From: Acidobacteriota bacterium
GTDB lineage: Bacteria > Acidobacteriota > Thermoanaerobaculia > Gp7-AA8
Direction: 5' to 3'
NCBI GenBank assembly: GCA_003223645.1
Contig: QHVT01000005.1
Coordinates: 434,001 to 498,000, forward strand
Length of the DNA: 64,000 nt
Positions within the stretch are counted from its first letter, which is position 1. Every line of letters starts with the position of its first letter. A program made the position numbers and the translations under genes. Below the pieces are notes generated by a model. That model ran no database searches. It saw only the letters and a list, made by a program, of their open reading frames with translations, and was not told the origin of the DNA. This document shows, piece after piece, positions 1-59,850 of this stretch.

Positions 1-2336
1 ATAAGCTCGAGTCACCGTCGCGAAATGCGCATAAAGCGCGGGATGCTCTCGCGCGAGTTGCTAATACCAATGACGAGCTTTTCATCAACGATACTGCAAT
101 CGCGTTTCCGCACGAGTCGCAACAATGGGCTCAGAAGCAGTGTCTCGCAACCTGGGGTCAGCGCGTTCTTTGGAAGGATGTTGTGGATGCTGCGTCGATG
201 CTCGAGCGTTGCCGCATCATCGGTCGTGCATTGGAGACGCACGTCGGAGACAGCTTCGTAGCGGACTGCGTGCGAGCGATCGATCGAGCAGCGGACCCAA
301 GAGATCTTGCGAAAGCGCACGTCGCTTACGGGCATGGATACTCGAGCTCGTTCTTCTCCGACGGGCACTGGATTACGTTCGACGAAGCAGGGCGATTGTT
401 TGAAGCGAATGGCAGTCCGATGGCGCTTGCCGTAAGGCATTTGCAGATTACGCTGGGGTTCCTCAAGTCCGGGCGTGGTCGATCGGCCATTTCCGATCTC
501 GTACGCCAAACGCCCGAACGTTACCGCGCACTCCATGCACAAATGCAGTGGTCGAATGCTCTGGTCGCGTCGGTGAGCGGAAAGGGCGATGCCGCTCTCA
601 GGCTATATCGATCCGCCGGCGCCGCATTCACCGGTGTCGGGGACAAAAGCAGCGCTGCGCGGATTCTTGAGATGCAATCATCGCTTTTAACAGAGGCCGG
701 ACGAACGGACGAAGCGTGGCATCTGCGAAGCGCAGCTCTGGTAATAGCAGACGAAGTTGGTAATGTCATCACGTTCTTGCCCAGTCTGTCCGGAGCAGCA
801 CGTGATGCAATCATGGCGGGCCGCTGGGACGTCGCTCATGGACTGTTGAACGCGATAATTACGACGCTGCAGCCAACGGAATGGAGTCCGGGCGATGCGT
901 TCGCTTGGCGCGCGTTCACCGCGCAACGCGCCGGCATGAATCGCACTGCGGCGGCCAATCTCCTAGCAGCACGGCAGTCCCGATCACAGGGAGACGATTT
1001 GGCTCTCGTCGAAGCGCTCCTTGCGAGAACGCCCGAAGAGGCGTTGATGTTGTTGAACAAACCTTTGAAGGCCGCTGAACAGCAAGGGGACAAGAGAGCA
1101 CTGGCTCAACTACTCGTTGAACGCGCGCGGCTGCTCCGCGCAACGGGACAGCTATCCCGCGCTCACGATGACTTGGGACGTGCGGCGGTGCTCGAGCAAA
1201 CTCCTCGCCGCAACTCGACCTTGACCATTCGTGATGCAGTCTTGGGAACGCCTGGCGGAGCGTATTGCATGCTCGCCGATTCTCTCGACGCTCGCGGCCA
1301 GACGGAACAGGCATTGAACGCGCTCGAACGCTCACCATTCAGCGATTACAAAAAAATTCCGCCGCGCACGCTCGTCATCACCTATGGCGTATTCGACGAT
1401 CGGCTTGCGGTCTTCACGCGCAATTCGGACGGATTTACTCGAACGACAGTCGCCGCTACGCGCCCGCAAATCGAGCGCCTCGTTTCGGCCTTCAATCAGG
1501 CAATCGTGCAGAACGATCGTTCGGCCTTCCAAAACACCGGGCGCTCGCTGGAACAGATTCTCTTTGCACCAATCGCGAACCTCACGGTAAATGCGGACAC
1601 ACTCGTGATCGTGTCCGATCCGGTCTTCACCAACTTGCCATTCGGCGCGCTGATGCGCAACGACAACCGGTACATCATCCAAGATCACGCCGTCGTCGTG
1701 ACGCCGAGCACCTCCGCCTATCTGCGCGCGTCGCACACGAGCACAACCACGCCGCGCGCACTTCTTTCCGTCGGGAACTCCCTCGGCAGCGAGCCATCGC
1801 CTCTCCCCGCAGCCGAGTCCGAAGCCGAAGAAATCGCAGCCATGTATCCGTCGCATGCGCTCCTCGTCGAAGGCGACGCAACAAAGGACCGAGTCGTAGG
1901 CGCGCTTCCGCTTTGCGACGCCGCACATTTTGCCGTGCACGCCAATGCGGGTCTGGGTGCAGTAGTGCCGCCGCACCTGATTCTGACGAAAACGGCAGAC
2001 GACGAAGGAATCCTCACCGCGCCCGAGATCGCTGCGCTTCATCTCAATCATCTTCGTACTGTCATGCTTGCGGGTTGTCGAACTGCGCTCTCGTCACAAC
2101 CCGGCGACGACAGTCTCGTCAACGCATTTCTCGTCGCCGGCGCGGGCAGCGTCGTCGGGACGTTGTGGGAAGTCGAAGACGCTTCGACGCGCACAATGTC
2201 GACGATGTTTCACCGTGAATTGCGTACCGGCTCGACTCCAGCAGAGGCATTGCGGATCACGCAACGCGAAATGATCCGCCGCGGAGCTCCGCCGAGCGTG
2301 TGGGCCTCCCTGCAACTTTACGGCTCCGGCCAGTAG
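1..2336 (+). CDS. CHAT-domain protease-like protein with TPR region (5' end outside window)
   Basis: The reading frame is open from base 3 to the TAG at 2334-2336, so the true start lies upstream; GTG 183 is only the first start-like codon inside. The first ~440 residues after 183 are helical, degenerate TPR-like repeats rich in Ala, Leu and Arg. The C-terminal ~300 residues match the CHAT (caspase HetF associated with TPRs) fold, with the likely catalytic His in HFAVHANAG (near 1937) and the Cys in LAGCRTAL (near 2077). The closing GAGSVVGTLWEVED stretch is typical of CHAT proteins. CHAT proteins act as caspase-like peptidases or signalling scaffolds; the substrate here is unknown. No partner protease target is visible, because the upstream neighbourhood is cut off. 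Confidence 0.85.
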   Translation, partial: KLESPSRNAHKARDALARVANTNDELFINDTAIAFPHESQQWAQKQCLATWGQRVLWKDVVDAASMLERCRIIGRALETHVGDSFVADCVRAIDRAADPRDLAKAHVAYGHGYSSSFFSDGHWITFDEAGRLFEANGSPMALAVRHLQITLGFLKSGRGRSAISDLVRQTPERYRALHAQMQWSNALVASVSGKGDAALRLYRSAGAAFTGVGDKSSAARILEMQSSLLTEAGRTDEAWHLRSAALVIADEVGNVITFLPSLSGAARDAIMAGRWDVAHGLLNAIITTLQPTEWSPGDAFAWRAFTAQRAGMNRTAAANLLAARQSRSQGDDLALVEALLARTPEEALMLLNKPLKAAEQQGDKRALAQLLVERARLLRATGQLSRAHDDLGRAAVLEQTPRRNSTLTIRDAVLGTPGGAYCMLADSLDARGQTEQALNALERSPFSDYKKIPPRTLVITYGVFDDRLAVFTRNSDGFTRTTVAATRPQIERLVSAFNQAIVQNDRSAFQNTGRSLEQILFAPIANLTVNADTLVIVSDPVFTNLPFGALMRNDNRYIIQDHAVVVTPSTSAYLRASHTSTTTPRALLSVGNSLGSEPSPLPAAESEAEEIAAMYPSHALLVEGDATKDRVVGALPLCDAAHFAVHANAGLGAVVPPHLILTKTADDEGILTAPEIAALHLNHLRTVMLAGCRTALSSQPGDDSLVNAFLVAGAGSVVGTLWEVEDASTRTMSTMFHRELRTGSTPAEALRITQREMIRRGAPPSVWASLQLYGSGQ

Positions 2337-5494: not shown

Positions 5495-6403
5495 CGCTTC
5501 CACGCCTTTCCTTCGAATCCGAACGAGAACCGCTCCGGTTGCAACACCTCGGCGAGGATCTGCAGCGACTCCACGAGCCGCGGCCCGGGCCGGTTGAAGT
5601 ACTGATTGCCGTCGAGCAGAAACACGTCCGCGCGCAGCTCCGGCCATCCGTGAAACTCACGCTCGATCTGTTCGATGCCGAAGCCGCACGGAAAAATTAG
5701 TACGACGTCGGGATCGGATTCGACGAGCGCGTTCCAATCGAGCCACGGAGAGTGCTTGCCGCGCTCGCCGAAGAGATTGATGCCGCCGGCCCATCTCGAT
5801 CAGCTCCGGCATCCAGTTGCCGGCGGTCATCAGCGGCGACAGCCATTCGATCGTGGCGACACGCTTTCGAGTGGTGCGCGTCTCCGGCGCGCCCCCGCCC
5901 TCAGGCGCGCCAGAGGCGCGCACCACTCCGTTCATTGCCTCGCGCATTTCCGAGACGAGCGTTTCGCCGGCTCCGGAGCCGCCGAGTGCATTGGCAGTGC
6001 GCGCGATGTCGGCGAAGACATCGTCGAGCGTTTGCGGATTGAGCGGAATGATCTGCGGTGCGACGCCCGCCCAGTCAGCGATCGGGGCTTCGACGTCGCG
6101 CAGACTCACCGCGCAGACTTCGCACTGCACCTGCGTGACGATGTGCGTCGGCGCGAGCTCGCGCAGCAGCTCGGCGTCGACGCGGTACACGCTGATGTCG
6201 TGGCGCAGGATCTCGTCGACGCGCGCGTGGATCTCCTCCGACGTCATCGCGCCGTGTACCTTCGACTCCGTGCACACCGGCAGCCGCTCGATGCCGCGCG
6301 GGAAGTCGCATTCGTGCGACCTCCCGACGAGCGACGATTCGTAGCCGAGGGCGCAGACGATCTCAGTTGCGCTTGGAAGCAGCGACACGATTCGCTGGAA
6401 CAT
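5482..6403 (-). pseudogene. BtuF-like cobalamin-binding protein, one-base frameshift
   Basis: The protein starts at ATG 6403 (MFQRIVSLLPSATEIVCALG) and matches the helical-backbone periplasmic B12/metal receptor family (HECDFP, VDAELLRELAPTHIVTQVQC, AGNWMPELIEM). Near 5790-5792 a CCC run, GGG on the coding strand, holds one base too many. Removing it joins the frame to GGINLFGERGKHSPWLDWN and LDGNQYFNRPGPRLVESLQ, ending at TGA 5482, for 306 residues in total, the usual family size. No signal peptide is obvious at this start. A 58-bp repeat is inserted in frame at 5869-5928. The frameshift may be a real mutation or a homopolymer sequencing error. Confidence 0.85.
5869..5928. repeat. Palindromic repeat inside the btuF-like gene
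   Basis: The ends GAGTGGTGCGCG and CGCGCACCACTC are exact inverted complements around an inner GGCGCGCC stem. It adds about 20 codons (VVRASGAPEGGGAPETRTT region) without breaking the frame. Confidence 0.7.
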
Positions 6404-6947
6404 TGAGTCTCCGCTCCGCGAGCGCGAATGCGCCAAAGAAAATCGCGGAGAACAACAGATCGGATGCGAGCGTGCGATCGAAGAACGGAATCGCCGCGAC
6501 GTAGCACGCGACGAGACCGTCGAACGTCTTCGCGTAGGTCATGCCCGAGAGCCAGACCGCGAAGTTCGTGGTGATGAAGAAGAGGATCGACGACGCGACC
6601 GACGCGCTGGCGATCCATCCCGTCATCCTGAGTCGCGAAAATGGCGAAAGATCTCGACCTCTGAGATCCTTCGCTTCGCTCAGGCTGATGTGTTTGCGGA
6701 GCAGCATACCGAGAATCACGATCAATGCGTACGTCGCGTAAATGACGGGCATCAGCGAGTGCAGGCCGATGAAGAGATCGCCGATGAACATCGTCGCCAG
6801 CGGAACGATGAATGCGGAACGGCGGTCGTCGAATGTCGCACCGGCGAAGAGTGCGATCGCGCCGACGGGCGCGAAGTTCCAGGGATGCGGAGCGACGCGG
6901 AAGACGACGCCGAGGAGGACGAGGAGCAGCGAGAGTGCGAATCTCAT
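6363..6947 (-). CDS. DUF6580-type multi-pass membrane protein
   Basis: This 194-residue hydrophobic protein has about five membrane segments. The start MRFALSLLLVLLGVVFRVAPHPWNFAPVGA region and the GATFDDRR...PLATMFIGDLFIG pattern match the DUF6580 putative transport proteins, which are often found with B12 uptake genes. Its ATG shares one base with the btuB stop (TGATG) and its end overlaps the btuF-like start by 41 nt, so it is in the riboswitch operon. Between two membrane segments there is a repeat-derived insertion (SEAKDLRGRDLSPFSRLRMT). A role as a membrane component of B12 uptake is inferred from position only. Confidence 0.75.
   Translation of the reverse strand: MRFALSLLLVLLGVVFRVAPHPWNFAPVGAIALFAGATFDDRRSAFIVPLATMFIGDLFIGLHSLMPVIYATYALIVILGMLLRKHISLSEAKDLRGRDLSPFSRLRMTGWIASASVASSILFFITTNFAVWLSGMTYAKTFDGLVACYVAAIPFFDRTLASDLLFSAIFFGAFALAERRLNVPANRVAASKRN
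6619..6688. repeat. Repeat of the 'CATCCTGAG...CTTCGCTCAGG' family, in frame in the DUF6580 gene
   Basis: GTCATCCTGAGTCGCGAAA on one side and CTTCGCTTCGCTCAGG on the other form an imperfect inverted repeat. On the coding strand it reads SEAKDL...SRLRMT, a peptide typical of this interspersed repeat. It falls between two hydrophobic segments. Confidence 0.65.
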
Positions 6948-8767: not shown

Positions 8768-8807
8768 GACGACTCCTTCCCTCCGAAGGGTTGCGCGTTC
8801 GTCCGCA

Positions 8808-8965
8808 CGGTCGGTCTCCTGGCTTCCGGGTCATCCTTCCCGCGCCCCCTTCCCGCTGTTCGCAGTGGGGATCGCCTATTCGATCAAGGCGCGAGTCGTC
8901 TCCGGTTACAGTGGCGGGGGCCGCGCCGGCATCACACCGGCTTCCCGTTACCGTTTCGGACGTTG
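8808..8965 (-). promoter_or_regulatory. Cobalamin (AdoCbl-type) riboswitch
   Basis: Read on the minus strand, the 5' leader of btuB contains GGGAAGCCGGTGTGATGCCGG, GCCACTGTAACCGG, and the B12 box AGCCAGGAGACC near 8814-8825, in the right order and spacing for the Rfam cobalamin riboswitch. The start codon of btuB is about 40 nt further on. The element presumably lowers btuB-operon expression when cobalamin is abundant. Boundaries are approximate. Confidence 0.93.
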
Positions 8966-9010
8966 GTTGTTAAAGAACAGGTTGCGGAGTGTACCCGGTT
9001 TCGGGTTTTG

Positions 9011-9134
9011 AGTTTATCCCGCGCGAAGACGCGGGATCTCTGGTTACACCGCGATGCGACTGCCTATGCAACGCTGCGTGGGCAACCGCACTCCGGTGGA
9101 ACCGGAGATCCCGCGTCTTCGCGCGGGATAAACT
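9011..9134. repeat. 124-bp element with perfect 30-bp inverted arms
   Basis: The arm starting AGTTTATCCCGCGCGAAG at 9011-9040 is repeated as its exact complement at 9105-9134. Each arm is itself a hairpin (ATCCCGCG-N6-CGCGGGAT). The 64-bp centre shows no gene. It lies between the riboswitch promoter region and the 3' end of the amidohydrolase gene, three bases from that stop codon. Confidence 0.85.
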
Positions 9135-9137
9135 AAA

Positions 9138-10574
9138 TCACGGCCGCGCTTTGAACTTCTCGTACAGCAGCGTGTGGCGCGAATCCGTCGAAATTTCTTC
9201 ACCGCCGATGAAGACGCGCTTCACGTTCGTGCGGAACTCGAGCGGATCGCCGTCGGTGACGATCACGTTCGCGACTTTGCCGACGTCGATCGATCCGATC
9301 TGATCGGCGACGCCGAAAATCTCGGCGGGAAAAATCGTGATCGACTTCAGTGCGACGTCCTTCGGCAATCCGAACGCGGCGCACGATCCGGCGTGATACG
9401 GAAGATTGCGCGCGTTCTGCGCTTCGCTCGTCTGGATCGCGAACTTGATTCCGTTGTCGTAGAGCGTCTTCGCGTTCGTGAAGAGCAAATCGTACGGATC
9501 GTCTTCGCGCTGCGGCATCGCGAGGATCGGGCCGAGGAGGACGGGGATGTTGCGCGACTTCAGCTCGGGGATCACGCGCGCGACGTCCTGCGCGCCGGCG
9601 AGGATCATCTTCAGTTTGAATTCGTCCGCGAACTGAATTGCCGCGCGGATGTCGCGCTCGAGGTTCGCGTGCATGATGACGGGCAGGCGTCCTTCGACGA
9701 CCGGCACGAGCGCTTCGAGAATGAGATCGCGATCGACGCGCTTCACTTTCGCGCCGGTCGCGCGCGCATACGCCTGCGCGTCGCGCAGGATGTCGCGCAG
9801 CTTGTCGACGTCTTTCGTGTAGCTCTTCTTCAGCTCCTTCTCCGCTTCTTCGTCCTGCGGCACGTCGATGAGCGGCGCGCTGCGCAGACGCGGAAAGCGG
9901 ATGTGCATCGCCAGCGGCGCCTTGACGATCATCTCCTTCGGCGTCCAGCCGGCCATTTGAATGAGCGCGCTTTGTCCCGAGATGATGCCGCCTTCGGGGA
10001 CGCTGACGACGTTCGTCACGCCGTTCACGCGCGTCACCGGAATCAACTCGCTGTGCGGATTGATCGCGACCGCGGCCTGCGCGTTCGCATTGAGATCGCC
10101 GAGCTCCGTCGTGTCGACGGTTCCCGCAACGGAGTCGATCTCGACGAGACCGACGTTCGTGCCGGAGTCGATCATGCCGGGATAGATGAACTGTCCCGAC
10201 ACGTCGAGCACGACCGCGGCTGTCGGCATCTGCACGCTGCCCGCGGGACCGAACGCTTTAATTTTTCCGTTCTCGATCACGAGCGTGCCATTCGGAATCG
10301 GCGCGGACGTGACGGGAACGATCGTCCCGCCGCGCAGCACGATCGTCTGCTTCCTGCCGGGATTGTTCGGAATGGTGGACTGCGCGAGGAGCGGGAGGCA
10401 GAACAGTGCCAGCGCCAGCACAGCGGCAACTCGGTGTGCTTGTCGTTTTGTTGCTCTTCTCCCCGCGTCGAGGAGAGCGGGCATCCTGCCCGCCTCCCGG
10501 GGGCGGGCGGGACGCCCGCTCTCCTCGGCGAAGGTGCCCGAAGGGCGGATGAGGTGGACTGTGTGGTTACGCAT
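9138..10574 (-). CDS. Exported amidohydrolase-family protein lacking the HxH metal motif
   Basis: This is a 478-residue protein of the imidazolonepropionase-like amidohydrolase family. It shows a beta-sandwich start ([19 protein letters not shown]), the [14 protein letters not shown] segment where active members have Hx[11 protein letters not shown], and the C-terminal [19 protein letters not shown]. The usual metal ligands are missing, so hydrolase activity is uncertain. ATG 10574 overlaps the upstream stop by 8 nt. The hydrophobic signal core ([17 protein letters not shown]) is preceded by an unusually long arm, because a 59-bp repeat is inserted in frame. It is the last gene of a three-gene operon. 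Confidence 0.85.
10469..10527. repeat. GAGGAGAGCGGGC-family palindrome in a signal-peptide region
   Basis: The element runs from CGAGGAGAGCGGGC to GCCCGCTCTCCTCG with inner GCCCGCC/GGCGGGC stems, and flanking bases (CTTCTCCCCGC, GCGAAGG) also match the copy at 43071-43127. It encodes the [18 protein letters not shown] segment before the signal core of the amidohydrolase. Confidence 0.8.
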
Positions 10575-12003
10575 CTTTCTTCTCCTTCCCGCCCTTGTCC
10601 TTCTTCGCTTCGTCCGCTTCTTTCTTCAATCGCTCGTCCTTCTCGCGCTTGAGCGCGTCGCGCTGCTGCAGGTCTTTCGCGCGATCGAAGAGGATCTCGC
10701 CCTCGATCATCGTGGTGTCGACGCGCGAGTAGACCGACAGCGGATGTCCGGTCCAGATCACGAGGTCGGCGTCTTTGCCGGCTTCGATCGAGCCAATGCG
10801 CTTCTCGAGTCGCAGCTGCGTCGCGGGATTGATCGTGTTGAGCCGCAGCGCTTCGTCCTCGGTCAATCCGCCGTACTTCATCGACTTCGCGGCGTCGTGA
10901 TTGAGATGGCGCGCGAGCTCGTCGGAGTCGGAGTTGACGGACGTGAGCACGCCGTTCTTCACCATCAGCGCCACGTTGTACGGCGTCGCGTCGTACGCCT
11001 CGGCCTTGAAGCCCCACCAGTCGATGAACGTGCCGCCGCCGGTTCCATGCGCGGCGATCTCTCGCGCGACTTTGTAGCCTTCGAGGACGTGCTGCAGCTC
11101 GCGGACTTTGAACCCGAGCTCGTCGCCGAGGTTGAGCAGCATCAGGATCTCGTCGGAGCGATAGCAGTGCGAATGGACGTCGATGTTGCCGCGCAGGATG
11201 TCGGCCATCGTCTCCATCAGCAGATCGCGGCGCGGCGGGATCGCGGTTTCGTTGCGTTTTTTCTTCGCGTCGTATTCATCCCACGCGGCCATGTAGTCGC
11301 GCGCGTCGGTGAACGACTGGCGAATCACTTCCTCGACGCCCATACGTGTTGCCGGATACTGCCGCGGCGTGCCCTCGGGCGGACGGAAATTCGCGCTCTT
11401 CGGATTTTCGCCAAGCGCGAATTTGATCGTGCGCGGCGCGCCCTGCACCGGCCACTCGGCGATCGGATGTCCCCACTTCCACTTCACGATCTGGCTTTGT
11501 CCGCCGATCGAGTTCGCGGAGCCATGCAGCACGAGCGCGGTCGTCGTGCCGCCGGCGAGCTGGCGATACGCGGAGATGTCGTCGGCCGTGAGCACGTCGG
11601 CGATGCGCACCATGCCGGTGTTCGGCAGCGAGATCTCGTTCACGCTTCCTTCGACCGCGGTGTGGCTGTGCGTGTCGACGATGCCGGGGCTCACGAACTT
11701 GCCGGTGGCGTCGATGACCTGCGCGTTCGCCGGCGCCGCGATGTCCTTGCCGACGGCGGCGATCTTCGAGCCGCGAATCAGCACCGAGCCGTTTTCGATC
11801 CTGCCGTTCGTGATCGTGAGGATCGTGGCGTTCTTGATGAGGATGACGCGCTCCTGCGCGAACGCGGGGAGCGCCAGGAGAAGAAGTGTCATCCCGAGCG
11901 TGAGCGAGGGAGCTGGGGCTCGGGTGGTGCGTCCATGCTCATACCTCGTGCCCCACCCGCCCAGGTTCCTCGCTACGCTCGGAATGACATAGGTTTTGCT
12001 CAT
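10567..12003 (-). CDS. Exported metal-dependent amidohydrolase
   Basis: This is a 478-residue secreted member of the amidohydrolase superfamily (imidazolonepropionase-related). Metal-site motifs are intact: GIVDTHSHT (HxH), the later [10 protein letters not shown], and a [11 protein letters not shown] acid near the end. [18 protein letters not shown] is the family closing motif. ATG 12003 overlaps the upstream TGA (ATGA). The signal peptide reads MSKT, then a ~34-residue repeat-encoded insert (VIPSVARNL...SLTLGMT), then [11 protein letters not shown]. The C-terminus is a Lys/Glu-rich charged tail. The substrate is unknown; partners in the operon are two HxH-less paralogues. Confidence 0.87.
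11888..11990. repeat. 'GTCATCCCGAGCG...CGGAATGAC' element inside a signal-peptide coding region
   Basis: About 103 bp with GTCATCCCGAGCGTGAGCGAGG at one end and CCTCGCTACGCTCGGAATGAC at the other, plus inner GGGGC/GCCCC blocks. It is closely related to the intergenic copy at 51562-51666. It interrupts the amidohydrolase after its fourth codon but keeps the frame. Confidence 0.8.
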
Positions 12004-13679
12004 TTCGATTTGCTCCCGCTGAATTCGAACGTGCCGAGGGTCGTCGAGACGTTGCCGTTCATTGAATCGCCGGACAGCGTGCCGTGGAACACCCAGTCGC
12101 TCGCCTCGGCGCCCTTCTGCGCGGACGCGGAGATCGTGAACTCGAACGTGCCGTCGGCGAATGATCCGCCGCGGACGTCGCCGCTGCCGATCTCGCCGCT
12201 GTACGTTCCGGCGAGCTTGCCGTCTTCGTTGCGCAGCGTGACGGAGAGCGCGACGTTGCCCTGCGACGCGCGCACGGTGACGTTCCATGTGCCGTCGATC
12301 GGCGACGTTGAGATCGCGGCTTCCGCCGTTTTCTTTTCGTCCTTCGGCAGGCGTATCTCGCGTCCGTCGACGAACACGTGCGTCACTTTCGACTTCTCGT
12401 CGAAGATCGGTTTGTCACTGACGACGACGTTCGCGATTTTTCCTTTGTCGAGCGTTCCGAGCTGGCGATCGATGCCGAAGATGCGCGCGGGCGAGAGCGT
12501 CGTCGCGCGCAGCGCATCGTCGTCGGACAGTCCGCTCTTGATCGCCTTGCGAATGCCGGGAAGAAAGTCGCCCGTCTTTCCGGCGCCGCTGACGAGCGCG
12601 AACGTCGCTCCCGATTTCGCGAGCGACGCGGGTGACGTCGGCGCGAGCTGGCGGAAGCGGATCAGACGCAGCGGCTGATCCTGTTGATCGTCTTTGTCCG
12701 ACGGCGCGACCGGCCAGCGCACGGACACGAGCACCGGCACGTTCTTCAAGTCGCCGCTCATCGCGTACGCCTCGCGCGCGCCGGAGATGATGTAGTTGAT
12801 GTTGAACTCGGCCGCGATGCGCTGCACGCGGCGGATCATCTCTTCGCTGTCGGCGATGAAGACGACCGGCAGCGTGCGTCCGAGGACCGGCTGCAGCGCT
12901 TCGAGCGACGGATTCTCATCGGGGCGTTTGAGTCCCGACGGATTGCGCTCGTAGATCGCGCGCGCCGCGGTGTGCTGCTGCGCGTCCATCAGCGTCTGAC
13001 GGATGTATGAGATGACACCCATCAGGCTGTCGGGATAGGTCCACGCCGGACGCGGATTGAACGAGACCTGCATCGCGGCGGGACTCTTGATCACGCGCGA
13101 CTCGATCGCGCCGCTGCCGAGGTTCAGCGCGACCGACTGGCCATTGAAAATGCCGGCGGCCGGCGCGGTGATGATCGTCGTGACGCCGATCGCGCGGCGC
13201 GCGTCCGCATCGTCGTCGGAGATCCGCGCGTTGCGAATCGCCAGCGAGTCCGGCGTCGGCTCCGCGGTCTCTTCGGTCTGCCGCCGCGCGGCTCCGCCTC
13301 CACCGCCGCCGCCGAAACCGCGACGCGGCGCGGGTGCGGCGAAGCCGAGAGACGTTTGCGCGTCGATCAGGCCGGGATAAACATGCGCGCCTTTCGCGTC
13401 GATGTTCGTGGCGTCGAGCGGAATCGGCATGTCGTTCTTTCCGACCGCCTCGATGAGGCCTCCGCGAATGATCACGACGCCGTTCTCAATCGCGGGACCG
13501 GAAACCGGATGCACCGTTCCGCCGGTGATCGCGTAGACGCCGGGTGCGTCGGCAAAGAGCGCCGGCGCAGCGAGGAAAAGAAGGATGGCGAGCCGGCACG
13601 GCCGGCCGCGTAGGTTGGCCAAGCCTCGGGCGAATGACTCGCCTGAATGAACAGCTCCCCCAAGAAGCCTCAGGATCAT
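12000..13679 (-). CDS. Exported amidohydrolase-family protein with C-terminal beta domain
   Basis: This 559-residue protein is the first gene of the amidohydrolase operon. ATG 13679 is set by a GGAGGTG ribosome-binding site. The signal peptide is MILRLL, then a repeat-derived insert ([13 protein letters not shown]), then [14 protein letters not shown]. The amidohydrolase body has [29 protein letters not shown] (HxH lacking), a Gly-rich loop and [18 protein letters not shown]. The last ~100 residues ([16 protein letters not shown] onward) form a separate beta-rich domain. Loss of the metal ligands suggests a non-hydrolytic or altered chemistry. The end overlaps the next gene by 4 nt. Confidence 0.85.
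13592..13646. repeat. GTAGGTTGGCCAAGCC-family element in a signal-peptide coding region
   Basis: The core CGGCACGGCCGGCCGCGTAG followed by GTTGGCCAAGCCTCGGGCGA is shared with 53067-53130 and, more loosely, 20205-20250. On the minus strand it encodes the [13 protein letters not shown] insert of the amidohydrolase. Confidence 0.7.
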
Positions 13680-13707
13680 GCTCACCTCCGCAGCGCGCGA
13701 ATGATAC

Positions 13708-13790
13708 AGATGGCAGATGGCAGATGGCAGATGGCAAAACCGCAAACTCGCTTTTTTCCGCCGCGGTCCGCCATCCGCCATCTGCCATCC
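13708..13790. repeat. Hairpin with 7-bp tandem-unit arms (AGATGGC)4 / (GCCATCY)3
   Basis: Four copies of AGATGGC at 13708-13735 face three inverted units GCCATCC, GCCATCT and GCCATCC at 13770-13790. The element occupies most of the 167-bp gap between two divergent genes. Confidence 0.85.
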
Positions 13791-13846
13791 GTAAATTGAC
13801 GCGCCGTCCCGCGCTCCGCTAACCTCAGCACTTTCGAGAACTCCCC

Positions 13847-20204: not shown

Positions 20205-20250
20205 CCGGGCACGGCCCGGTACGCAGGTTGGCCTAGCCTTCCGGACGCCT
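20205..20250. repeat. Degenerate GTTGGCC-family element over the permease stop codon
   Basis: CCGGGCACGGCCCGG is a palindrome, followed by GCAGGTTGGCCTAGCC, related to the elements at 13592 and 53067. The last residues of the APC permease are read from it on the minus strand. Confidence 0.5.
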
Positions 20251-26786: not shown

Positions 26787-28162
26787 ATGCTGGCCCGCAT
26801 CGGAATGCGCATCGCCGATTTCTGCGAGCGCTGGTTTCCCGATGCCTTCGTATTCGCGCTCGCCGCGATCGTGCTGGTGTTTTTCGGCGGACTCGGAATC
26901 GGCGTGCCGGCGACGAAGCTCGTCGCCGAATTCGGCACCGGCTTCTGGTCGCTCGTGAATTTCACGATGCAGATGGCAATCGTGATCATCGGCGGCTTCG
27001 TCGTCGCGTCGTCGCCGCCAGTCGCGCGACTCACGTCATGGCTTGCGTCGATTCCGAAAAGCGCGCGCGGCGCGGTCGCATTCGTCGCCGCGTTCGCGAT
27101 GTTCTCGTCGCTGATCTCGTGGGGACTCTCGCTGATCTTCACCGGCCTCCTCGTCCGCGAGATCACGCGCCGCATGCGCGTCGACTATCGCGCCATCGGC
27201 GCCGCCGCCTATCTCGGCCTCGGCAGCGTCTGGGCCCTCGGCCTCTCCTCGTCCGCTGCGCTGCTGCAGGCGACGAAGTCGTCGATCCCCGCGTCGCTCC
27301 TTCCGATCACCGGCGTGATTCCGCTGACGCAGACGATCTTTCTCTGGCAGAACCTCGCGATGGCGCTCGTGCTGATCGTCGTGTCGGTGATCGTCGCGTA
27401 TTACTCGGCGCCGCGCGAAGAAGACGCGCGCGTTTTGGAAAGTGGAGCGGCGGACTCTCAGTCCGCCGAGGATGACCGGCGGGCCAAGAGCCCGCCGCTC
27501 CACTTTTCGGAAAAGCCGAAAACTCGCCGATCCTCAGCATCGTCATCGCGCTGCTCATGTTTGCGTATCTCATTCAGCAGTTCATCGAGAAGGGCGGACT
27601 CGCGGCGCTCGATCTCAACAACTTCAACTTCACGTTCCTCGCGTTCGGACTCCTGTTGCACTGGCGTCCGCGATCGTTTCTGCGCGCGGTGTCGCGATCC
27701 GTTCCTGCGACCGCGGGTGTGCTCATCCAGTTCCCGTTCTACGGCGGCATCTTCGGGATGATCTCGAAAACGCCGGTCGCGAATCACCTCGCCAGTCTCT
27801 TCGTGCACGTCACGACGAAAGACACGTTCCCGATCGTCGTCGCGTTCTACTCGGGAATCCTCGGCATGTTCGTGCCCTCCGGCGGCGGCAAGTGGGTGAT
27901 CGAAGCGCCCTACGTCATGGCCGCCGCCAACGCGTGGCACGTGCACCTCGGATGGACGGTGCAGATCTACAACGCGGCCGAGGCGCTGCCGAACCTGATC
28001 AATCCATTCTGGATGCTGCCGCTGATGGGAATCCTCAACGTGAAGGCGCGCGATCTGGCCGGATACTCGATCCTGCAGCTCCTCTTTCACGCGCCGATCG
28101 TGCTGTTGTTGTGCTGGCTTTTCGCACGAACACTCCCTTACATTCCGCCGGTCTTCCCTTGA
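26787..28162 (+). pseudogene. AtoE-like short-chain fatty acid transporter, disrupted by a repeat insertion
   Basis: The first part (IADFCERWFPDAFVFALAAIV to LIVVSVIVAYYSAPREEDARV) and the second part (ENSPILSIVIALLMFAYLIQ to PYIPPVFP) together cover the TIGR00366 short-chain fatty acid transporter family with about 12 membrane segments. They lie in different frames. Between them is a 62-bp palindrome (27442-27503) flanked by TTTTGGAAA and TTTTCGGAAA. Deleting 71 bp (element plus one flank copy) restores one frame of 434 residues reading ARVFGKAENSP. As it stands the first frame runs on to 27761 and the transporter is split. Internal translation of the second half from 27557 is possible but unlikely to give function. 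Confidence 0.87.
27442..27503. repeat. GTGGAGCGGC-family element with duplication-like flanks
   Basis: A 62-bp copy runs from GTGGAGCGGCGGAC to GCCGCTCCAC, with GGCGGAC and GGCGGGC inner stems. It is bordered by TTTTGGAAA on the left and TTTTCGGAAA on the right, an imperfect direct repeat as left by transposition. It splits the AtoE-like gene. Confidence 0.85.
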
Positions 28163-59314: not shown

Positions 59315-59850
59315 ATTGGCATTCACTTAAGCGCCATTACGCGTAAATAACTCGCAGCGCAGTGAGTTACGCTCTACCCAGGCTCGTGGAGACAAGATAT
59401 CAAAGGAGATGTCGCATCGCTGTGCTGCGTCGCGCCATGGACGCACGTGCGGCGCGGTCGCGCAGCAACGCGTCGCGGCATGGGCGCACGTGCGGCGCGG
59501 TCGCGCTGCAATGCGTCGCGCCATGGACCCACGTGCAGCGCGGTCGCGCTGCAATGCGTCGCGCCATGGACCCACGTGCAGCGCGGTCGCGCTGCAATGC
59601 GTCGCGGCATGGGCGCACGTGCGGCGCGGTCGCGCTGCAATGCGTCGCGCCATGGACCCACGTGCAGCGCGGTCGCGCTGCAATGCGTCGCGCCATGGAC
59701 CCACGTGCAGCGCGGTCGCGCTGCAATGCGTCGCGGCATGGGCGCACGTGCGGCGCGGTCGCGCGGCAATGCGTCGCGGCATGGACGCACATGAGTAACT
59801 CACTGAACCGTCATTGACTTACGCATCGTGCCGCTTAAGTGAACGCCAAT
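59315..59850. mobile_element. Putative non-autonomous element: 56-bp inverted ends around a 43-bp minisatellite
   Basis: The left end (59315-59370, starting ATTGGCATTCACTTAAGCG and ending AGTGAGTTAC) and the inverted right end (59795-59850) match at 43 of 56 positions with no gaps. Between them lies the 43-bp tandem array at about 59435-59790. No open frame has codon-like features and no transposase is encoded, so the element would depend on a transposase elsewhere. Family assignment is open. Confidence 0.7.
59435..59790. repeat. 43-bp tandem array, 9 start points, two unit types
   Basis: CCATGG or GCATGG anchors occur at exactly 43-bp steps (59435, 59478, 59521, 59564, 59607, 59650, 59693, 59736, 59779). 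Unit type A reads CCATGGACCCACGTGCAGCG; type B reads GCATGGGCGCACGTGCGGCG; both continue CGGTCGCGCTGCAATGCGTC. The order is A-like, B, A, A, B, A, A, B, B-like, i.e. a 129-bp higher-order period. No unique spacers are present, so it is not a CRISPR array. Confidence 0.92.

Follow-up and report, generated by a model that had tools for sequence, protein, structure and literature searches.

Short palindromic repeats inserted in frame in the signal-peptide region of three consecutive amidohydrolase genes of a Thermoanaerobaculia genome

In a 64,000-nucleotide stretch (the window, G000:C41:434001-498000) of a 6.38-Mb draft genome of the class Thermoanaerobaculia (Acidobacteriota), three consecutive genes encoding exported amidohydrolases, here called g1, g2 and g3, each carry a short repeat of a different multicopy family, placed in the signal peptide after the start codon and ahead of the hydrophobic core. 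On the strength of comparative sequence analysis, we think that these inserts are translated and tolerated as passengers in the signal-peptide n-regions. The explanation that we favour, and consider likely, is that small palindromes fill the gene junctions of this genome and that, where neighbouring genes overlap, the n-region tolerates them as long as the frame is kept.

The three genes are tightly packed. The g1 ATG (13677-13679) directly follows the Shine-Dalgarno (SD) sequence GGAGGTGAGC, the g2 ATG (12001-12003) overlaps the g1 stop codon (12000-12002) in an ATGA, and the g3 ATG (10572-10574), which has an AAGGAG SD, overlaps the g2 stop codon (10567-10569). With overlaps of 4–8 bp, neither junction has a spacer. 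The original prediction, made from the sequence of this region alone, held that three consecutive genes bear an in-frame repeat near their start and that the repeats belong to different families at equivalent sites; all three repeats were found in frame where it had placed them, each preceded by a conserved start codon and followed by the hydrophobic core (coordinates in the table). The g1 insert belongs to family A, whose recognisable core matches copies at 20208, 53078 and elsewhere; with four exact GTTGGCCWAGCC cores and about 10 places detected by nhmmer, this is a real but small family, and its insert, which forms no unusual RNA hairpin (z -0.6), is the weakest of the three. Family B, in g2, occurs at 27 places in a 1.58-Mb sample of the genome (25%, read in stretches) and at about 50 genome-wide, and its RNA hairpin reaches -64.6 kcal/mol (z -6.2). 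Family C, at 26 places in the same sample, forms a hairpin of -72.7 kcal/mol (z -5.2); g3 begins MRNHTV, then runs through the family C repeat and into the hydrophobic core.

Conservation of the same inserts in relatives had been named beforehand as a finding that would mark them as old coding sequence, and a comparison with orthologous operons as one check. This outcome did not occur: a relative of the same genus, G001 (83% identical in g2), and G012, from a second genus, lack an insert in all three genes. The insert-free leaders of G001 read MPTRRTVAVLLLLIATLL... for g1, MRKLVAVLLFACSAFAQ for g2 and MRKVFFAALLLAGSAAFGQSV for g3, and the family A insert is absent from seven g1 orthologs. The starts themselves are conserved, as (i) the ATGA overlap of g2 with the g1 stop codon is present in 8 of 8 orthologs (G000 included), (ii) the g3 start overlaps the g2 stop codon in 9 of 9 and (iii) the GGAGGT-type SD site of g1 is kept in most. 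Because the start codons are homologous across orthologs, the repeats lie downstream of the native starts. These sequence comparisons show that the three repeats are insertions. All genomes used are drafts; the genes flanking the inserts on either side keep a conserved order, which speaks against misassembly. A cross-phylum survey of amidohydrolase operons retrieved mostly distant sequences of little use for the n-region; it served to assign G000 to the Thermoanaerobaculia.

The same n-regions have been hit repeatedly. Other repeats are present in the g2 n-region of genus g5 (the three species G005, G014 and G017, counted as one event), G009 and G010, and in the g3 n-region of G005, G009 and G007. 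Searches with the inserts of G010 g2, G009 g3 and G005 g2 showed that each of them has multiple copies in its own genome; the remaining inserts of relatives were called repeats from their sequence only. In all six independent inserts outside G000 the frame is kept with the homologous overlapping start, for which the chance probability is about 1.4e-3 for frame alone and 3.3e-6 when openness (measured at 0.37 per frame) is included. Adding the three inserts of the window (nine events) lowers these values to 5e-5 and 6e-9, respectively; as the window inserts were noticed for being in frame, a fair test is provided by the six outside events. At C4:312.7-313.1 kb lies a partial, decayed copy of the g1-g2 junction; the repeat that it holds at the same place is a different one, the overlap no longer exists and the frame is not kept, as expected where the constraint is gone. 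Leaders across orthologs range from 39 to 77 amino acids, with charges of -3 to +7 in the part that precedes the last 22 residues.

These observations may be brought together as follows. G000 is estimated to carry at least 2,000 short palindromic repeats of many families, mostly at gene junctions. Where genes overlap, as in g1/g2/g3, the lack of a spacer would allow repeats to persist only just after the start codon. The n-region, whose sequence and length are weakly constrained, could accommodate them, and an Arg-rich insert would preserve its positive charge; the survivors would be only those insertions in frame with the overlapping, probably coupled, start codon. Translation would then begin at the upstream starts and the g1-g3 proteins would be made with n-regions of about 30–48 residues, exported normally, the insert being cut off with the signal peptide so that the mature enzymes would be unchanged and the insertions presumably neutral. 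Such tolerance of N-terminal regions was one of two readings offered by the original prediction, and it is favoured by the insert-free orthologs, the conserved starts and the independent in-frame inserts at the same sites elsewhere.

The second reading, a preference of the repeats for the 5' ends of exported-protein genes, gained no support here, as gene junctions of all kinds often contain repeats. Short repeats occupy 604 intervals of the sample, a density of about 380 per Mb (about 2,400 per genome by extrapolation); 451 of these intervals lie mostly in non-coding sequence, and 98 are within genes and in frame, showing no codon bias of their own. Gene calls were made with our own codon-usage model, and a simple hydropathy rule served to call signal peptides. 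Among 195 genes aligned to G001, 68 (35%) have a repeat within about 90 bp of the 5' end, and in nearly all of these the repeat precedes the conserved start. At this density three neighbours in a row would be expected in about 4% of cases, which is unremarkable; the notable feature is the position of the repeats after the start codon with the frame kept, not the clustering in three genes. In four genes the repeat clearly follows the start instead: g2, g3, g1 (through its family A insert) and a gene of the lipoprotein type, which reads MSPIG[...]RGRWLIALFFILLTFC where G001 has MSRPRILLAGVLLLLLAC. All four are signal-peptide genes, versus 52 of 195 overall (p about 0.005, three of the four being the case that prompted the analysis). 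The data support tolerance rather than targeting: exported genes differ in tolerating a repeat downstream of the start.

The repeats could instead belong to a 5' leader, translation beginning inside or after them (at ATG 11890 in g2, ATG 10482 in g3 and a TTG in g1), in which case the open upstream frame would be a matter of chance or a relic. Several points weigh in this direction or, more broadly, against the explanation that we favour. The internal ATG of g3, within the repeat and preceded by GGGAGG, would yield a good signal peptide, g1 has an in-frame TTG, and the g3 and g1 repeats may in part be 5' leader with an internal start. N-terminal repetitive extragenic palindromic sequences (REPs) of several other species were mostly judged non-coding (PMC3733652). 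When all repeats upstream of genes are considered, no excess in the gene's own frame is seen (frame 0 has 20 supported starts, the other two frames 26 and 9); as the bulk of these repeats precede the true start, this genome-wide test was rejected as a measure of N-terminal insertion, and the frame argument rests on the ortholog-anchored cases. Neither is there an enrichment of signal-peptide genes among genes with overlapping starts, a repeat being found in 3 of 77 with and 12 of 196 without a signal peptide, a count confounded by several misclassified genes of the second group in which the repeat itself encodes the signal peptide. However, the overlapping starts and their SD context are conserved in all 8–9 orthologs, every insert in the relatives is in frame, and the internal start of g2 has no SD and would yield a signal peptide devoid of positive charge. 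We regard it as unlikely that the three inserts are 5' leader.

A further proposal is that the repeats are mainly RNA elements, whose hairpins at the gene boundaries would tune mRNA stability or translational coupling, with coding as a side constraint. Such a role has been proposed for REPs (PMC3733652) and fits the very stable hairpins found shortly after the g2 and g3 starts; the g1 insert, however, has no unusual structure, and the occurrence of differing repeats in relatives and of none in G001 and G012 argues against a conserved regulatory role, which makes this proposal improbable. Selection for the inserts, through an effect of longer signal sequences on secretion timing or targeting, would account for the recurrent hits in the same n-regions of several genera, but insert length and composition vary widely, insert-free orthologs are common, and with repeats at 35% of gene 5' ends recurrence needs no advantage; we consider this very improbable. 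Old coding sequence resembling repeats by chance, for which nothing but the open frames speaks, can be practically dismissed, since the inserts belong to multicopy families, are absent from orthologs and lack codon bias, the coding model starting the genes after them.

Repeats are also accepted within genes. Relative to G001 orthologs, 11 insertions inside genes are in frame and one is frameshifted. The in-frame hosts include UvrA, an ATP-dependent DNA ligase, an FGE-sulfatase/DinB-domain protein and a signal peptidase-like protein. Pantoate ligase, too, carries an in-frame repeat, of 19 residues and by alignment in a conserved region, and keeps its Pfam match (2e-98). The frameshifting repeat is in an AtoE-like transporter gene (window 27438-27505; the AtoE and signal peptidase names were assigned from sequence by eye), likely a broken gene, or else a sequencing error. 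A second apparent out-of-frame insertion, C41:216569, was rejected as intergenic, upstream of purD. The net gain in length is +4 residues for a repeat of 20 in UvrA, +3 for 21 in the FGE-domain protein and, by comparison with the closest solved structure, about 0 for 20 in an ornithine cyclodeaminase-like protein. As these gains fall far below the repeat length, several repeats seem to have replaced host codons, which simple transposition or insertion does not appear to account for.

One class of repeats may go further and provide entire signal peptides. In the sample, 78 repeats are inverted arrays of a 7-bp unit, compared with 0, 6, 17, 6, 0 and 0 arrays with periods of 5, 6, 8, 9, 10 and 11 bp, respectively. 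They are laid out as (purine-rich 7-mer)n, loop, (its complement)n. Since 7 cannot be divided evenly by 3, an arm gives one and the same cyclic heptapeptide whatever the frame (AEGRRQK..., LLPSAFC...), and as the arms are inverted, a basic arm is followed by a hydrophobic arm on both strands. In 90% of the readings, hydrophobicity is higher in the second arm, and all six readings run from hydrophilic to hydrophobic in 39 of the 78 elements. In about six genes the signal peptide is apparently made by the heptamer element, no plausible start being present after it: these encode a sulfatase/TPR lipoprotein, a gamma-glutamyltranspeptidase (Pfam 4e-149), a DUF547 protein, a DsbH-like protein, a TPR protein and a small lipoprotein; a seventh candidate, CrtC/AttH-like by eye, is less certain. 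The sulfatase orthologs of G000, G001 and G008 use different units as signal peptide (between them GCAGAAG, GCAGAAC and GCAGAAT), a fourth unit, GGATTGA, supplies part of the signal peptide in G010, and those of six other genera carry signal peptides of the ordinary kind. For the gamma-glutamyltranspeptidase, both G000 and G001 use heptamer arrays with differing units. From these sequences, the heptamer array might be a ready-made signal-peptide cassette, nearly independent of frame and orientation and independently recruited in several genera for the sulfatase and again for the gamma-glutamyltranspeptidase, a proposition that we hold to be evenly balanced. In the literature searched, no description of a cassette with these properties, repeatedly recruited, was found, and a search for work on palindromes linked to signal peptides, or on heptamer arrays, in Acidobacteriota returned no report of this lineage.

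By analogy, the inserts of G000 appear to work like Rickettsia palindromic elements (RPEs) and intragenic REPs, a likeness of behaviour that does not extend to a claim of family membership. RPEs are multicopy palindromes of about 100–150 bp found in frame in conserved genes, some at the N-terminus (PMC10969869, PMC2229807, PMC3733652). Both are dispersed multicopy repeats inserted in frame in genes that lack them in relatives, and families B and C, unlike family A, share the long hairpin. The G000 repeats differ in occurring in another phylum, in many unrelated families and in an estimated hundreds of intragenic copies per genome, and in that several seem to replace host codons rather than merely adding to them. 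REPs of the GTAG/CGTC superfamilies are in-frame palindromes in open reading frames including uvrA and DNA ligase (PMC3733652), as are G000 repeats in its UvrA and DNA ligase genes; however, the tag is no consistent end feature of the G000 families, GTAG preceding the stem in two of the four exact family A cores, occurring only inside the stem in family B and being absent from family C. A search for Y1 transposases gave a single weak Y1_Tnp match in G000 (C4:53122, 3e-7) and none in G001. Signal-peptide formation by a miniature inverted-repeat transposable element is of a kind already known, since an in-frame fusion of Yersinia YPAL/RU-2 supplies part of a signal peptide (YPO1552; PMC2229807), whereas the heptamer palindromes would supply the whole signal peptide of conserved enzymes, with units differing by genus. 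PARCEL elements are likewise dyad-symmetric DNA encoding amphipathic sequence (PMC2996958), but as tandem 25-residue protein repeats, in contrast to the single insertions at gene starts of G000.

Table. Location of the amidohydrolase genes, their inserts and related features (window positions unless a contig, C, or locus, L, is given)
Feature	Location	Strand	Remarks
g1, exported amidohydrolase, 559 aa	12000..13679	-	Pfam Amidohydro_1 1.2e-12
g2, exported amidohydrolase, 478 aa	10567..12003	-	Pfam Amidohydro_3 1.6e-18
g3, exported amidohydrolase, 478 aa	9138..10574	-	Pfam Amidohydro_1 2.2e-08
Family A (GTTGGCC) insert in g1, codons 7-29	13593..13661	-	core 13592-13645 matches other copies
Family B (GTCATCCCGAG) palindrome in g2 n-region	11885..11993	-	multicopy, RNA hairpin
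Family C (GAGAGCGGGC) palindrome in g3 n-region	10456..10554	-	multicopy, RNA hairpin
Internal ATG within family C repeat, possible alternative g3 start	10482..10484	-	SD-like GGGAGG upstream
Internal ATG at end of family B repeat in g2	11890..11892	-	no SD
Heptamer (AGATGGC) palindrome between g1 and next gene, upstream of g1 start	13706..13791	.	
Decayed g1-g2 junction copy	L056 (G000 C4:311500-314500), about 1245-1620		
In-frame repeat, pantoate ligase	C29:136456-136515		
In-frame repeat, ornithine cyclodeaminase-like protein	C4:349333-349398		
In-frame repeat, UvrA	C41:509524-509582		
Candidate whole signal peptides from heptamer arrays	G000 C29:236852-238978, C41:163169-164836, C29:91027-91863		
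Candidate whole signal peptides from heptamer arrays	G000 C4:46601-48460, C41:219717-221423		orthologs L267, L272, L269, L278

Other features were noted around the operon. A multicopy repeat, the GTTTATCCCGCGCGAAGACGCGGGAT palindrome, lies directly after the g3 stop codon (window 9004-9140), and two further in-frame repeats (6620-6683 and 5867-5930) lie within genes just downstream, a small membrane protein gene and the gene that follows it. A cobalamin riboswitch (Rfam RF00174, 1e-19) is present at 8793-8970 on the minus strand, upstream of a TonB-dependent receptor gene, and a tandem array of at least nine copies of a 43-bp unit at 59332-59847.

Small palindromes that invade genes in frame are known chiefly from Rickettsia and from some REP-rich genomes; in this Thermoanaerobaculia lineage the phenomenon reaches a larger estimated scale and involves many families. 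How freely the n-region of a signal peptide accepts insertion is a question for which the lineage provides a natural experiment. If repeats have been turned into complete export signals several times independently, as the heptamer arrays suggest, they would illustrate a route from non-coding repeat to functional protein sequence.

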